Below, piece after piece: positions 13,014 through 56,834 of a DNA stretch of 64,000 bases. Under the pieces are notes generated by a model. It did no database searches, had not been told where the DNA came from, and was given only the letters and a program-made list of their open reading frames with translations. The position numbers and the translations under genes are program-made. Location of the stretch: contig NZ_JAKZEW010000002.1 of the NCBI RefSeq assembly GCF_022548875.1, forward strand, positions 124,898 to 188,897, in the 5' to 3' direction. The stretch is from Glycomyces sp. L485 (GTDB lineage: Bacteria; Actinomycetota; Actinomycetes; Mycobacteriales; Micromonosporaceae). Position 1 is the stretch's first letter; the number at the start of each line of letters is the position of its first letter.

Positions 13014-15245
13014 TTACTCGAGCTCGCCGCGGACGGTCCGGGCGGCGGCGACCAGATTCGCCAGCGCCGGGCGCACCTCTTCATACCGGCGCGTCTTCAG
13101 CCCGCAGTCGGGGTTCACCCAGACCCGCCCGGGGTCGACGGCGGCGACCGCGAGCCGCAGCGAGGCGGCCATCTCCCCGGTCGACGGCACGCGCGGCGAG
13201 TGGATGTCCCACACACCCGGACCCACCCCGCGCCGGTAGTCGGCGCGGTCGAGGTCGGCGAGGACCTCCATCTTCGACCGCGACGCCTCGATCGAGGTGA
13301 CGTCGGCGTCGAGGTCGGCGATCGCGTCGATGACGTCCCCGAACTCCGAGTAGCAAAGGTGCGTGTGGATCTGGGTCTGGGTCTTCACCCCGGCCGTGGC
13401 GATGCGGAACGCCCGCGTCGCCCACCGCCGGTAGTGCTCGCGCCGGTCCGATCGCAGCGGCAGCAGCTCGCGCAGCGCCGGCTCGTCGACCTGGATGATC
13501 GCGGTCCCGGCGGCTTCGAGGTCGGCGACCTCGTCGCGCAGCGCGAGCGCCACCTGGTCGGCGGTGTCGGCCAGCGGCTGGTCGTCGCGCACGAACGACC
13601 AGGCCAGGATCGTGACCGGGCCGGTGAGCATGCCCTTGACCGGTTTGTCGGTGAGCGATTGGGCGTAGGAGGTCCACTCGACGGTCATCGGCTCGGGCCT
13701 GGCGACGTCGGCGTACAGGATCGGCGGGCGCACGCACCGCGAGCCGTAGGACTGGACCCATCCGGCGGCGGTGGTGGCGAAGCCGGTGAGCTGCTCGGCG
13801 AAGTACTGGACCATGTCGTTGCGCTCCGGCTCGCCGTGCACCAGCACGTCCAGACCCAGTTTCTCCTGCTCGGCGATGACGGCGGCGATCTCGGCCCGCA
13901 TGCGGGCGTGGTAGTCGGCGTCGATCATCAGTCCGCGCCGGTGGGCGGCGCGGGCCCGGCGCAGTTCGGCGGTCTGTGGGAAGGAGCCGATGGTGGTGGT
14001 CGGCAGCAGGGGCAGCTCCGGTTGCGCCGCGACGCGCTCGGCGTAGTCGGCGCGGCGGTCGGCGCCAGCGGGGAGGGCGTGGAGGCGGGAGCGGACGGTC
14101 TCGTTGCGCCAGTGCTCGGGGGCGGCCGGGCGCTGCAGGCGCGGAGCGGCAGAGTCGGCGAGACTCGCGACCTCCCGGAGTTTCTGGCGGGCGAAGGCGA
14201 GCCGGTCGGTCAGCGAGGACGGCAGCTCGCTCTCGGCTTCCAGATCGACCGGGACGTGCAGCAGCGAGCACGAGGACGACACGGCGAGCCGGTCGGTGAT
14301 CCGGTGCAGTCGTTCGAGATCGGCGGCGGCCGCGAGCAGGTCGGTGCGCCAGATGTTGCGCCCGTCGACCACGCCGGCCGCGATCGATGTTTCACGTGAA
14401 ACGTTCAGGGACTCGAGCATTGCGATATCGCCGCGCCCCCGGACGAGGTCGAGCGCGATGCCGTGGACACCGGCCTCCACCAGCACCGGCAGCGACTCCC
14501 CAAGGGGCCCATAGCCGCCCGTGACCATCACGTCGACGAGCGGGGTCAGGCGCCGGTAGGCGGCGCCCACTGCCTCGAGTTCGCTCTCGTTGCGGTCGGC
14601 GCACAGCGCCGGTTCGTCGAGCTGGACCCAGTCGGCGCCCGCCTCCACGAGCGCCGACAGCAGCCGCTCGTAGACGGCGGTGAGCTCGCCGAGCTTGTCG
14701 AACGGGTCGAAACCGGTCGGCGCGTCGTCGGAGGCCTTGGCGAGCAGCAGGAACGACGCCGGACCGAGCAGGACCGGGCGGGCGGCCAAGCCGCGCTGGC
14801 GCGCCTCGTCGAACTCGGCGAGAGCCTTCTCGGGCCTGGCCTCGAACGCGGTCCCGGGCCCGATCTCGGGCACGAGGTAGTGGTAGTTGGTGTCGAACCA
14901 CTTCGTCATCTCCAGCGGCACCGCCTCGTGGTCGCCGCGGGCTGCGGCGAAGTACGTGGCGGTCTCGGTGCCGCGGCGGTGCCGGGGAGCGATCGCGTCG
15001 ACGGCGACGATCGTGTCGAGCACGTGGTCGTACAGCGAGAACACGCCGGTCGGAACCGAGTCCAGTCCCGCCGAGGCGAGATCGTCGAGCATCTGGGAGC
15101 GGATCGCGGCGGCCGCCGCGTCCAGGCCGGCCTCGTCGAGCCGCCCGGACCAGTGCGCCTCGAGGGCGCGCTTGAGGTCCCGGTTCGCGCCGATGCGCGG
15201 GTATCCGAGCACGGTGGCGTGCACGGTCTTCTTCTCATCGTTCAT
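13014..15245 (-). CDS. metE: Cobalamin-independent methionine synthase
   Basis: 743-aa MetE, transferring a methyl group from 5-methyltetrahydropteroyltri-glutamate to homocysteine. The N-terminus reads GYPRIGANRDLKRALEAHW; the catalytic half starts near LPLLPTTTIGSFPQT. Zinc ligands are visible as the His and Cys of THLCYSEFGD and the Cys of NPDCGLKTRRYEE. A cobalamin riboswitch lies directly upstream, so expression should fall when B12 is available. A parS site sits inside the gene and is translated as NVSRETS at about residues 281–287, in a loop before VVDGRNIWRTDL where relatives differ. Confidence 0.95.
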   Translation of the reverse strand: MNDEKKTVHATVLGYPRIGANRDLKRALEAHWSGRLDEAGLDAAAAAIRSQMLDDLASAGLDSVPTGVFSLYDHVLDTIVAVDAIAPRHRRGTETATYFAAARGDHEAVPLEMTKWFDTNYHYLVPEIGPGTAFEARPEKALAEFDEARQRGLAARPVLLGPASFLLLAKASDDAPTGFDPFDKLGELTAVYERLLSALVEAGADWVQLDEPALCADRNESELEAVGAAYRRLTPLVDVMVTGGYGPLGESLPVLVEAGVHGIALDLVRGRGDIAMLESLNVSRETSIAAGVVDGRNIWRTDLLAAAADLERLHRITDRLAVSSSCSLLHVPVDLEAESELPSSLTDRLAFARQKLREVASLADSAAPRLQRPAAPEHWRNETVRSRLHALPAGADRRADYAERVAAQPELPLLPTTTIGSFPQTAELRRARAAHRRGLMIDADYHARMRAEIAAVIAEQEKLGLDVLVHGEPERNDMVQYFAEQLTGFATTAAGWVQSYGSRCVRPPILYADVARPEPMTVEWTSYAQSLTDKPVKGMLTGPVTILAWSFVRDDQPLADTADQVALALRDEVADLEAAGTAIIQVDEPALRELLPLRSDRREHYRRWATRAFRIATAGVKTQTQIHTHLCYSEFGDVIDAIADLDADVTSIEASRSKMEVLADLDRADYRRGVGPGVWDIHSPRVPSTGEMAASLRLAVAAVDPGRVWVNPDCGLKTRRYEEVRPALANLVAAARTVRGELE
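14388..14403. other. parS site 1 (inside metE)
   Basis: TGTTTCACGTGAAACG, 15 of 16 bases of the ParB-binding consensus TGTTTCACGTGAAACA. It is about 37 kb from the next parS and on the other side of oriC. Read in metE it gives Val-Ser-Arg-Glu-Thr. No flanking palindrome. Confidence 0.85.
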
Positions 15246-51479: not shown

Positions 51480-52163
51480 ATGACCCAGGAGCCTGAGAGC
51501 TCCGAAGACGTCGAGGCCAATGTTTCACGTGAAACATTGGCCTCTGTGTTCGGGGACGATGATGAGCGAATCCAACAGGCACAGGACTATGTGGGCCTGC
51601 TGCGGACCGCGGGAATCGAGCGCGGTCTTATCGGCCCGCGGGAAGTGCCGCGGCTGTGGGGTCGCCACGTGCTCAACAGCGCGGTTGTCGGCGAGTTGAT
51701 CGGCCGCGACTCGGACGTGATCGACGTTGGCTCGGGGGCGGGCCTGCCGGGGATCCCGCTGGCGCTGGCGAGGCCGGACCTGTGGGTGACGCTCGTCGAG
51801 CCGATGCAGCGGAGGGTGGACTTCCTTCAGGAAGTCATCGGGACGCTGGGCATACCGAACGTAGAGGTGCTGAGAGCCCGAGCCGATGAGGTCGCGCCGA
51901 GAGGGCGGGCCGACGCGGTGGTGTCGCGGGCCGTTGCGCCGTTGGGGAAGCTGGCGCGTTGGTGCCTGCCGCTGGCGAGAGTCGGCGGAGCGATGCTGGC
52001 GATCAAGGGACAGAGCGCGGCGGAGGAGATCGAGCGCGATGCCAAGCATCTCAAGCGAGCAGGCGGCGGGAAAGCCGAAGTGAGGCTGTGCGGCCGGGAG
52101 AAGTTGGTCGATCCGGTGTTCGGCGTGCCCACTACGGTAGTGAGGGTCGAAAGGGCCCGCTGA
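51480..52163 (+). CDS. rsmG: 16S rRNA (guanine-527-N7) methyltransferase RsmG
   Basis: 227-aa SAM-dependent methyltransferase. VIDVGSGAGLPGIPLALARP binds SAM; VSRAVAPLGKLARWCLPL is typical of GidB/RsmG. Residues 15–19 (VSRET) are encoded by a parS site in a segment before the conserved core (ASVFGDDDERIQQAQDYVGLL). Loss of this enzyme confers low-level streptomycin resistance in other bacteria. Confidence 0.95.
   Translation: MTQEPESSEDVEANVSRETLASVFGDDDERIQQAQDYVGLLRTAGIERGLIGPREVPRLWGRHVLNSAVVGELIGRDSDVIDVGSGAGLPGIPLALARPDLWVTLVEPMQRRVDFLQEVIGTLGIPNVEVLRARADEVAPRGRADAVVSRAVAPLGKLARWCLPLARVGGAMLAIKGQSAAEEIERDAKHLKRAGGGKAEVRLCGREKLVDPVFGVPTTVVRVERAR
51513..51544. other. parS site 2 within a 32-nt perfect palindrome (inside rsmG)
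   Basis: TGTTTCACGTGAAACA at 51521–51536, flanked on both sides by eight complementary bases (GAGGCCAA / TTGGCCTC). It lies in the first codons of rsmG and is translated as Ala-Asn-Val-Ser-Arg-Glu-Thr-Leu-Ala. The RNA could fold near the start codon of rsmG. Confidence 0.95.
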
Positions 52164-52442
52164 AGAAGGCGAGCTGATCGGCGACGGCCCCGGACCGTGA
52201 AGCCACACACGGCAGGCACGCCCGGAGCCCGACGGGTCCCCTGAAGGGACAAGTCGGGAGATATCCACTGTCACTTCCAGCCTGGAGTATTCGATCTCTC
52301 AGCAGAGGTAAAGTCCTCGTCTATTGTGTTGCCGCGCAGGGCGTTCAGTATCGTCGCCCGCGTTGGCGACTCTTCGAACGCGGCAGGATTCACTCTGTTG
52401 GGCTAATGTATGGCTCGTAAGCTTCTTCAAGAACGGGGTCGA

Positions 52443-52458
52443 TGTTTCACGTGAAACA
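52443..52458. other. parS site 3 (just before parA)
   Basis: Perfect TGTTTCACGTGAAACA ending 15 bases before the parA GTG start, so ParB bound here could influence parA expression. The remainder of the 310-bp rsmG–parA gap (52164–52442) shows no gene. Confidence 0.96.
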
Positions 52459-52473
52459 TTCGGCCCGTAATCT

Positions 52474-53913
52474 GTGGCGGTGAATGTGCGCGACCCCCTT
52501 CCCTCAGAAGATCGTGAACACCAGAGCTCTCTCGGCGGCGATACCCCTGCTGAACGCCGCATCAAGAACCTTCTCGATGCCGCTGTGAGCGAGGATGAAC
52601 CTACTCCCCGTCGACGCCGCTATCGAGAAACTTCACAGTCGCCGGGTGGCGAAGCACAGCGCTACGGTTCCGCTGGGCCAGAATCGGTCCCTAGGAAGAC
52701 CGGCCAGACGGCCGGAACCACGGACCCGGTCTTCCGCAGTCAAAACGATCTGTCGAACGACAGCGGGGAACGGGACGGGATGCGCAGATCCACATCGCAG
52801 CGAGGCAAGTCCGGACGTCACACCGCGCCGGAGGCCACGGCCGACGGCGCTGGGCTCAAGCCGGGCAATGACTCGAAAGCTTCACAATCTCACGACACCG
52901 AGACGACTTCGAAGTCGAACAGCTATGACAGCATCGCCGATGCCTCAGGTGATTCGATGCCGCTGGTGGAGGAGCGCAGCGACGAGATCCCGCAGCAGTC
53001 CAACCCGCTCGAGGACGATCTGCCGCTCGCTCGAGAGGCGCAGCGTGCCGTTCGAGTTCTGAACCCGGCCGGCGAAGTCACCATGCCCCGGCCGCCGCGC
53101 CGTCGCGTGATCGCCGTGGCGAACCAGAAAGGCGGCGTCGGCAAGACCACCAGCGCCGTGAATCTCGCGGTCGCGCTCGCCCTGCACGGCAACCGGGTCA
53201 TGGTCATCGACCTGGACCCGCAAGGCAATGCCTCCACCGGCCTCGGTGTCGAGCACGGCGCCGGCACGCCGAGCGTGTACGAGGCGCTCGTCGACGCCAT
53301 GCCGCTTGAAGAGATCGAACAGCGTGTCGATGGAATTCCATCGCTCCACTGCATCCCGGCGACCATCGACCTCGCAGGCGCCGAGGTCGAGCTGGTGAAC
53401 GTCGTCGCCCGCGAGGCGCGGCTGGAAAAGATCATCGCGGCCTATGGCGGTGAAGTCGACTACATCCTCATCGACTGTCCGCCGTCGCTCGGCCTGCTGA
53501 CCGTCAACGCGCTTGTCGCGGCTGAGGAAGTGCTCATTCCGATCCAGTGCGAGTACTACGCGCTCGAGGGACTGGGGCAGCTGCTGAGGAACATCGAACT
53601 CGTCAAGGCTCACCTGAACTCGCGGCTGCGCGTCTCGACGATATTGCTGACGATGTACGACAAGCGCACCAAGCTCGCCGATCAGGTCGAGAAAGAGGTG
53701 CGCGGTCACTTCAGCGAGATCGTGCTCGACTCGGTAGTGCCGCGAAGCGTCCGAGTCTCGGAGGCTCCCGGATACGGCCAATCGATCATGACGTACGATC
53801 CCGGCTCGCGGGGCGCGACGAGCTATTTCGAAGCAGCCGAAGAGATCGCCCACAGGGGCGCGAAGCTGAGTTCGCGGCGATCAGTTCAGAAGAATGAGAA
53901 GGGCAGGAACTAG
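52474..53913 (+). CDS. parA: Chromosome partitioning ATPase ParA, with long N-terminal extension
   Basis: 479-aa; the ATPase core starts near residue 208 (RRRVIAVANQKGGVGKTTSA, Walker A Lys at about 219–224), followed by VMVIDLDPQGNASTGLG and YILIDCPPSLGLLTVNAL. The core is the usual about 260 residues; the first about 200 residues are an Ser/Gln/Thr/charge-rich, probably disordered extension with no domain I recognise. GTG 52474 is the first start after parS site 3; a start nearer the core cannot be excluded. Three bases separate it from parB. Confidence 0.93.
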   Translation: MAVNVRDPLPSEDREHQSSLGGDTPAERRIKNLLDAAVSEDEPTPRRRRYRETSQSPGGEAQRYGSAGPESVPRKTGQTAGTTDPVFRSQNDLSNDSGERDGMRRSTSQRGKSGRHTAPEATADGAGLKPGNDSKASQSHDTETTSKSNSYDSIADASGDSMPLVEERSDEIPQQSNPLEDDLPLAREAQRAVRVLNPAGEVTMPRPPRRRVIAVANQKGGVGKTTSAVNLAVALALHGNRVMVIDLDPQGNASTGLGVEHGAGTPSVYEALVDAMPLEEIEQRVDGIPSLHCIPATIDLAGAEVELVNVVAREARLEKIIAAYGGEVDYILIDCPPSLGLLTVNALVAAEEVLIPIQCEYYALEGLGQLLRNIELVKAHLNSRLRVSTILLTMYDKRTKLADQVEKEVRGHFSEIVLDSVVPRSVRVSEAPGYGQSIMTYDPGSRGATSYFEAAEEIAHRGAKLSSRRSVQKNEKGRN

Positions 53914-53916
53914 TCG

Positions 53917-55017
53917 ATGGCAGCGGCGAAACGTGGGGGGCTCGGTCGCGGGCTCGGGGCACTGATCCCGACCGGACTGGCCGAGACCACGACCACCGAA
54001 GTCGATGAGGTCGACGAAGAGCCCGCTCCGAAATCGAACGGGGCGCCACGACAGGATGTCCCGAGCACCCGCGATGTTTCACGTGAAACACCACCGGTGG
54101 AGGGAGCTGATGTTTCACGTGAAACATCGGCGCCCGAGCCGACGGTTCCCGACTTGGTGCCGGTCCCCGGGGCCAGCTTCCAGCTGATCCGGATCGACGA
54201 GATCTCGATGAACCCGAAGCAGCCGCGGCAGGTCTTCGACGAGGAGCATCTTGTCGAACTCCAGACCTCGCTGACCGAGGTCGGCATGCTTCAGCCGATC
54301 GCGGTCCGCGAGAGGGCGGAGGACGAGTCGTTCGGTGGCGCAGACGACGGATCCAAGTTCGAACTCGTCATGGGCGAGCGCCGGCTCCGCGCCGCCACCG
54401 CACTCGGCTGGGAGAGCGTTCCGGCGATCATCCGGCGGACCTCTGACGACGAGCTCCTGCGCGAGGCGCTGCTGGAGAACATTCACCGCGTGGAGCTGAA
54501 TCCGCTTGAAGAGGGAGCGGCCTATCAGCAGCTCCTCGAAGAGTTCAATGTGACACAGGAGGAGCTCGCGAAGCGGATCGGCCGGAGCCGCCCGCAGATC
54601 TCCAATATGATCCGTCTGCTGAGCTTGCCGCCGACCGTGCAGACGAAGGTGGCGGCCGGCGTGCTGACGGCGGGTCATGCGCGTGCGCTGCTCGGCCTTG
54701 ACAGCAATGACACACAGGAGCACATCGCCGAGCGGATCATCAGCGAAGGGCTGTCGGTGCGCAGCACCGAGGAGCTTGTGACCGCATGCCGCCTGGAGGA
54801 GACGCCGGAACTCGACGAGCCGAAGAGCGCCGCCGCTCGGGCTTCCAGTAAAGACCGGATCAAGGCACCTGGGCTGGACGAACTGAAGGACCGTCTCTCC
54901 GATCATTTCGAGACGAAGGTCGGCGTCACGTGGGGGCGCAAGAAAGGCAAGATCGTCATCGAATTCGGTTCACTGGCGGATCTGGACCGGATCGTCGAGC
55001 AGATCGGCGTCGAGTAA
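53917..55017 (+). CDS. parB: Chromosome partitioning protein ParB
   Basis: 366-aa parS-binding CTPase. RGGLGRGLGALIPTG is the ParA-contacting N-terminus; core ISMNPKQPRQVFDEEHLVEL, then GERRLRAATALGW (the GERRxRA CTP motif), LLENIHRVELNPLEE, the HTH QEELAKRIGRSRPQISNMIRL, and a C-terminal dimer domain. The linker at residues 54–70 holds two VSRET copies, each encoded by a parS site, so the gene carries its own binding sites. Confidence 0.96.
   Translation: MAAAKRGGLGRGLGALIPTGLAETTTTEVDEVDEEPAPKSNGAPRQDVPSTRDVSRETPPVEGADVSRETSAPEPTVPDLVPVPGASFQLIRIDEISMNPKQPRQVFDEEHLVELQTSLTEVGMLQPIAVRERAEDESFGGADDGSKFELVMGERRLRAATALGWESVPAIIRRTSDDELLREALLENIHRVELNPLEEGAAYQQLLEEFNVTQEELAKRIGRSRPQISNMIRLLSLPPTVQTKVAAGVLTAGHARALLGLDSNDTQEHIAERIISEGLSVRSTEELVTACRLEETPELDEPKSAAARASSKDRIKAPGLDELKDRLSDHFETKVGVTWGRKKGKIVIEFGSLADLDRIVEQIGVE
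54075..54090. other. parS site 4 (inside parB)
   Basis: Perfect TGTTTCACGTGAAACA, read as VSRET at ParB residues 54–58. The centre is 36 bp from site 5. Confidence 0.97.
54111..54126. other. parS site 5 (inside parB)
   Basis: Perfect TGTTTCACGTGAAACA, read as VSRET at ParB residues 66–70. Flanked by GA/TC, giving a 20-nt palindrome. Confidence 0.97.
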
Positions 55018-55285: not shown

Positions 55286-55323
55286 GCCGGGGCCGATGTT
55301 TCACGTGAAACATCGGCCCCGGC
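55286..55323. terminator. parS site 6 within a 38-nt perfect palindrome
   Basis: Perfect TGTTTCACGTGAAACA at 55297–55312 extended by 11 complementary bases each side (GCCGGGGCCGA / TCGGCCCCGGC). It lies 55 bp beyond the end of the leftward GNAT gene and could terminate its transcript as an RNA hairpin while being a ParB site as DNA. The terminator role is inference. Confidence 0.8.
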
Positions 55324-56800: not shown

Positions 56801-56834
56801 AGGTCGAGATGTTTCACGTGAAACATCTCGACCT
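56801..56834. terminator. parS site 7 within a 34-nt perfect palindrome
   Basis: Perfect TGTTTCACGTGAAACA at 56810–56825 with nine complementary bases each side (AGGTCGAGA / TCTCGACCT). It fills the 49-bp gap between convergent genes (stop at 56798 and 56848), exactly where a bidirectional terminator would sit. Confidence 0.88.

Follow-up and report, generated by a model that had tools for sequence, protein, structure and literature searches.

The closest described counterparts of the element examined here are the chromosomal parS sites of ParABS systems, the distribution of which was reportedly the subject of a study by Livny et al. in 2007. Sites inside genes are already known case by case: one paper places parS1 of C. 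glutamicum inside trpCF (PMC7083940), and another reports two parS of M. bovis BCG, one within parA and the other overlapping the -10 box that precedes gidB (PMC2346475). No description of a reading-frame rule or of a hairpin setting for parS was found in a search of open-access papers, including passages of these two and of PMC7022226 and PMC8743542; as for the two peptides that the site can encode, the same search gave no paper with Val-Ser-Arg-Glu-Thr (VSRET) together with parS sites, and FHVKH appeared in a single paper, on T cells. Here we analyzed a 64,000-nucleotide stretch of the Glycomyces sp. L485 genome (contig NZ_JAKZEW010000002.1, positions 124,898 to 188,897; hereafter the window), in which parS sites lie both between and within genes, and asked how those within genes are read.

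The window holds seven parS-like 16-mers, as compared to a mean of 0.05 in shuffled sequence: six are exact copies of TGTTTCACGTGAAACA, the 16-bp palindrome of chromosomal parS, and one carries a single mismatch (Table 1). These seven are the only ones at up to two mismatches in the whole 4.42-Mb assembly; they span 42.4 kb of one contig, with six packed within 5.3 kb around parAB, so that both the sequence and the clustering are those of described ParABS systems. The count is very stable in the genus (seven at up to one mismatch in 18 of the 21 other Glycomyces genomes, and eight, six and two in one genome each, the last being 92% complete). The initial annotation of this DNA had correctly worked out the three frames that parS offers (one containing a TGA stop, one reading FHVKH and one reading VSRET); because parS is a palindrome, they are the same on either strand. 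The annotation had also counted four coding sites (one in metE, one in rsmG and two in parB), all read as VSRET, and the window and assembly scans bore this out; by our own gene calls, the three remaining sites (52443, 55297 and 56810) fall between genes. By itself, four out of four is little evidence (a chance of 1 in 16 if both open frames were equally likely), and it is the comparison with related genomes that carries weight.

Across the fetched actinobacterial loci, in-gene parS was strongly biased toward the VSRET frame. Among 625 distinct sites with an intact 14-bp core (parS with the outer base free), 377 were intergenic, 216 were read as VSRET, 24 as FHVKH and eight in the stop frame; for the 294 distinct exact sites the corresponding numbers were 169, 114, 9 and 2. 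The frame class of each site is the phase of the called gene that holds it, with genes called by our own codon-based caller, as the comparison genomes come unannotated; it was trained on the fetched loci and recovers the window genes around parS. Sites too near a locus end (25 bases before or after, or 30 for genome G378, described below) were dropped, as were sites that repeated a 66-bp context already counted, while one VSRET call of 49 residues with almost no coding score (L246) was retained among the 216. Gene families were named by Pfam matches or else, in part, by BLAST to window proteins. The VSRET frame was common to unrelated hosts: metE, rsmG, parA, parB, a Streptomyces gene without Pfam match and five genes of G378.

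Moreover, the frame depended on the position within the gene. Past codon 18, 161 of the 162 sites read VSRET and one read FHVKH, while 23 of the 24 FHVKH sites, versus 55 of the 216 VSRET sites, lay no more than 18 codons from the gene start (Fisher 8.7e-12). At the eight stop-frame sites the gene ended as xFT-stop, because the TGA forces this. The claim in the initial annotation that in-gene parS is "always" VSRET was thus too strong, with FHVKH at gene starts, the stop frame at gene ends and two interior exceptions (a Dyp-type peroxidase and an NTPase). Its interpretation was partly supported: the in-gene bias was strong and DNA-driven, and FHVKH was far from being as frequent as VSRET. Sites in genes were also scarcer than gene coverage predicts: in 80 loci chosen by ParB alone, 72 of 242 core sites lay in called genes, which make up 79% of the sequence; since this cover is low, some N-terminal extensions were probably counted as intergenic.

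The bias extended to loci fetched later by exact parS matches, mainly from families not used before, where the whole coding sites were eight VSRET and no FHVKH (excluding one partial call in L416; the eight include two Streptomyces sites of previously encountered kinds). Genome G378, from outside the class, carries 108 exact parS across its 3.38-Mb chromosome, mostly intergenic and with several pairs 34-36 bp apart; five other genomes of its family have 2 to 11 exact sites each. Either parS has multiplied in G378 or the word is shared with another regulator. Of its sites, the first 100 listed were classed: 89 intergenic, six VSRET, four FHVKH and one in the stop frame. The six VSRET sites lie in five genes that are unrelated by Pfam (TPP/ferredoxin oxidoreductase type, exonuclease-helicase type, TPP enzyme, Mur ligase type and NTPase), while the FHVKH sites are at codons 1, 1 (a weak 43-residue call), 11 and 112. 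The last of these is in the NTPase, where a VSRET site lies 34 bp away, so that the two cannot both be VSRET.

Several observations weigh against a strict or many-times-repeated rule: i) 110 of the 216 VSRET sites are in parA and are not independent, the ParA copy probably being one old, ancestral site; ii) the parB, metE and rsmG sites of Glycomyces make up 73 of the 216 and represent few events; iii) start codons are uncertain in our gene calls, including those of the 11 of 24 FHVKH genes called as starting at the GTG inside parS; iv) three of the eight stop-frame genes are weak open reading frames (ORFs) scoring near threshold; v) a Shine-Dalgarno sequence near parS was found for 7 of 24 FHVKH and 29 of 216 VSRET sites, a contrast that is weak overall; vi) the FHVKH frame is not forbidden in gene interiors, as it occurs at codon 68 of the Dyp-type peroxidase (the sole such case among the 625 sites, reading MFHVKHQPGI at the beginning of the Pfam Dyp_perox_N match) and at codon 112 of the G378 NTPase. 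Counted by family-by-genus unit, interior sites were 40 VSRET and one FHVKH, these units again not being independent. As a general mark of FHVKH sites, the Shine-Dalgarno sequence was rejected as too weak, being clear mainly in rsmG of mycobacteria-like lineages.

An alternative is that the frame is a historical accident, with a few ancient VSRET sites inherited and copied, and the probable ancestry of the parA site and the constancy of exactly seven sites in 18 of 21 other Glycomyces genomes would both fit it. Against it stand the many unrelated hosts, among them the five G378 genes (six VSRET sites versus one clearly interior FHVKH), the use of VSRET in rsmG of some lineages and of the FHVKH phase in others, and the fact that gene position accounts for nearly all FHVKH cases. 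We consider accident a very unlikely source of the frame.

Codon usage points the other way from the observed bias. The initial annotation had proposed a one-in-two expectation for the two open frames, and this null was rejected: by the product of codon frequencies (573,095 codons), an FHVKH reading is ~59 times likelier than VSRET, because GTT, TCA, CGT, GAA and ACA all end in A or T and are mostly rare here. Within genes, TCACGTGA 8-mers outside parS gave six cases of the FHVKH phase, three of which belong to a single orthologous gene, versus one case of the VSRET phase. The VSRET bias therefore runs against codon usage and is stronger than had been assumed.

The same loci (the window, L031-L110 and L184-L263, part of which were fetched for holding parS) contain 151 VSRET peptides in 2,164 genes (616,263 residues), and not one of the 151 is encoded by DNA unlike parS: 84 have no mismatch to it, 40 have one, 23 two and 4 three. 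The 14-bp core is intact in 145, and the differences are mostly at the outermost bases. The initial annotation had named VSRET conserved in orthologues without the exact parS DNA as an outcome that would speak against it, and VSRET without parS-like DNA was not seen. In the 80 loci picked by ParB alone, 67 VSRET peptides were found versus 0.53 expected from amino-acid frequencies, and 61 of the 67 use GTT-TCA-CGT-GAA, for which the codon-usage product is 3.4e-5. If VSRET were itself a functional motif, such as one for binding in ParA and ParB, with the parS DNA following from it, one could understand why it lies 42-49 residues before KGGVGKT in ParA of 19 of the 40 genera listed, and why ParB carries two copies of it in 20 of 20 Glycomyces loci, window included. 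We regard this as extremely unlikely, as the synonymous codons hardly drift, even in loci not chosen by parS, and the peptide also occurs in unrelated enzymes (the metE and rsmG products and those of exonuclease-helicase and Mur ligase type). Because it occurs in unrelated proteins, VSRET looks like a shadow, or by-product, of the DNA site.

Within the window, the initial annotation had placed the coding sites outside conserved motifs, which holds for ParB and RsmG. ParB residues 1-76, which span both VSRET copies (12 residues apart, as annotated), have an AlphaFold2 pLDDT below 50, and the RsmG copy precedes the Pfam GidB match (residues 31-205) and borders the first predicted helices. The MetE site falls within the Meth_synt_1 domain and occupies a variable stretch that directly precedes the conserved GVVDGRNIW. 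In a comparison of MetE from 30 loci (out of 41 genomes with a match), VSRET was present in 22 of 22 Glycomyces proteins (19 with the exact 16-mer and three with one outer mismatch), while the corresponding DNA of eight parS-free relatives differed from parS at 10-14 of the 16 bases. No length change was seen between 21 of the 22 and seven of the eight relatives; the eighth relative is one residue shorter, and one Glycomyces MetE has three extra residues. The clean in-frame insertion proposed in the initial annotation was rejected for MetE on these lengths, and in the ParB and ParA linkers the copies may have arisen by insertion or by substitution. At the site upstream of parA, a TAA cuts the VSRET phase off from parA, while the same stretch is open into parA in locus L199; an N-terminal extension of ParA seems to have been gained or lost at 52443-52512.

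Both open frames are used in rsmG. A parS in the VSRET frame is found in rsmG of Glycomyces and also of Kribbella and five further genera, in these latter mostly near the start and in one case near the C-terminus. By contrast, rsmG of Mycobacterium-like lineages, Nocardia and Amycolatopsis has a site that is in the FHVKH phase and overlaps the start. In the mycobacteria-like genes, GAGGA or GGAGGA often directly abuts parS, and its central GTG is therefore well placed as the rsmG start codon; we infer from this arrangement that it acts as the start in sites of this type. In Glycomyces, the rsmG site is the center of a 32-bp palindrome that lies in coding sequence, includes a TTG leucine codon and is identical in 11 of 11 distinct sites listed.

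These patterns are very probably explained by selection on the DNA, which would hold parS in place, combined with selection on the protein, which would leave VSRET in gene interiors with no function needed from the peptide. In-gene sites would be ordinary ParB-binding parS, and each 16-bp site within a gene would have to be readable. The TGA frame could only end a gene. The FHVKH frame (L/M/V-F-H-V-K-H/Q) would supply a bulky, partly hydrophobic peptide and occur where translation starts in or beside parS, while linkers, tails and turns may tolerate VSRET. The places in which parS can persist would then be limited by purifying selection on the protein, so that VSRET is what remains in gene interiors.

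Table 1. parS sites, host genes and parS-centered palindromes of the window
Feature	Position	Strand	Description
metE (cobalamin-independent methionine synthase)	13014..15245	-	PF01717, PF08267
parS in metE	14388..14403	-	outer-base mismatch; read Asn-VSRET-Ser, residues 282-286
rsmG (gidB)	51480..52163	+	PF02527
32-bp perfect palindrome centered on rsmG parS	51513..51544		fold z -6.4
parS in rsmG	51521..51536	+	VSRET frame, residues 15-19
parS upstream of parA	52443..52458		exact 16-mer; VSRET phase with parA, TAA between
parA ORF	52474..53913	+	start uncertain; own gene caller begins at 52957
parB	53917..55017	+	PF02195, PF17762, PF23552
parS in parB, first	54075..54090	+	VSRET residues 54-58, low-confidence linker
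parS in parB, second	54111..54126	+	VSRET residues 66-70, low-confidence linker
38-bp perfect palindrome	55286..55323		central parS 55297-55312; between convergent parB and GNAT gene; terminator-like hairpin
34-bp perfect palindrome	56801..56834		central parS 56810-56825; between convergent ORF (no Pfam match) and ddl-like gene (by eye)

Between convergent genes, parS was often found at the center of a longer perfect palindrome. Long arms (at least 6 bp of extra perfect palindrome per side) were present at 48 of 70 convergent, 4 of 57 tandem and 0 of 4 divergent sites (Fisher 2.5e-13; exact 16-mers whose neighbors are no more than 1500 bp away in sum). The contrast was sharpest in Glycomyces (29 of 30 convergent, 0 of 9 tandem), and was also seen when this genus was excluded (19 of 40 versus 4 of 48; Fisher 5.4e-5) and outside both Glycomyces and Streptomyces (3 of 6 versus 0 of 36). 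In the later set the effect was weaker (6 of 15 convergent, 1 of 8 tandem), and two results count against a general hairpin setting: there was no clear contrast in Streptomyces (16 of 34 convergent, 4 of 12 tandem) and none in G378 (2 of 20 convergent, 3 of 48 tandem, 4 of 17 divergent). As a control, with the right arm shifted by 1-5 bases, 6-bp arms paired in 2 of 655 comparisons.

The hairpin between parB and the GNAT gene was aligned in 19 sequences, excluding the armless Glycomyces site of locus L008 at 2727. It was paired in 99.1% of cells, all nine variable pairs had changed on both sides, and covariation was 0.429 versus 0.095 after shuffling; for one of five measures (further pair types), 34 of 500 shuffles matched the observed value. 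Thus the site has one trait of terminators, a stable GC-rich stem-loop kept by compensatory change. Fold z on the two strands was -7.6/-8.3 at 55297 and -6.3/-6.0 at 56810, compared with -2.8 at 52443, -1.4 at 54075, -4.3 at 54111 and +0.3 in metE. Long-armed convergent sites were richer in T after the stem (0.29) and in A before it (0.27) than short-armed ones (0.16 and 0.16), and a clear U run was missing from most hairpin sequences listed. A simple terminator scan scored only the minus strand of 55286-55323 and not the palindrome at 56810, with four hits in the region versus 3.3 in shuffles. Taken by sequence and predicted fold, the long parS-centered palindrome looks like a bidirectional terminator hairpin that would stop transcription from both sides. 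Where genes converge, such a hairpin would house the parS palindrome in Glycomyces and its neighbors at least, often at the tip of a long covarying stem.

The long arms might instead be a mutational product, template switching having perfected an existing palindrome without selection for termination. Such events could start from a perfect palindrome of 16 bp; in rsmG, long arms flank parS within a gene, and they also occur at some tandem sites of Streptomyces and at the tandem and divergent sites of G378. On the other hand, template switching would have to account for long arms being common at convergent sites and rare at tandem or divergent ones, also outside Glycomyces and Streptomyces, for the near absence of pairing in shifted arms, and for the richness in A before and T after the stem. 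We judge it unlikely as the origin of the arms.

A wider proposal, which we put forward tentatively as one possibility, is that actinobacterial parS sites settle at joints of gene expression: in bidirectional terminator hairpins between convergent genes, at the ends of genes, where they would serve as start region or stop codon, and otherwise as VSRET in linkers. The terminator setting may have been selected for barring RNA polymerase from the site of ParB loading, in which case centromere element and terminator would be one structure. Such a union would matter for the question of how ParB can load without clashing with transcription. The frame bias offers a simple testable rule for fitting fixed chromosomal DNA signals into protein-coding genes; for annotation, VSRET and MFHVKH near an actinobacterial origin may signal parS rather than protein function.

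Three described kinds of element resemble these sites in part. Bidirectional intrinsic terminators share the GC-rich perfect stem between convergent genes, with more A before and T after it; the loop-proximal 16 bp here are parS, and most of the sequences listed show no clear U run. Rickettsia palindromic elements are long mobile repeats that place palindromic DNA in frame inside protein genes. In comparison, parS is a 16-bp protein-binding site, and its presence left the length of MetE unchanged in 21 of 22 species. The DNA uptake sequences of Neisseria and Pasteurellaceae, as described in PMC2346458, are, like parS, a repeated word in genes with orientation and position bias: current annotation has dozens of Neisseria ORFs begin at the motif, and its inverted copies between genes have been proposed, and disputed, as terminators. 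DNA uptake sequences number hundreds to thousands of copies and are linked to DNA uptake; no such genome-wide abundance was found in the Glycomyces sp. L485 assembly, where the repeated word is a palindromic chromosome-segregation site in seven copies.

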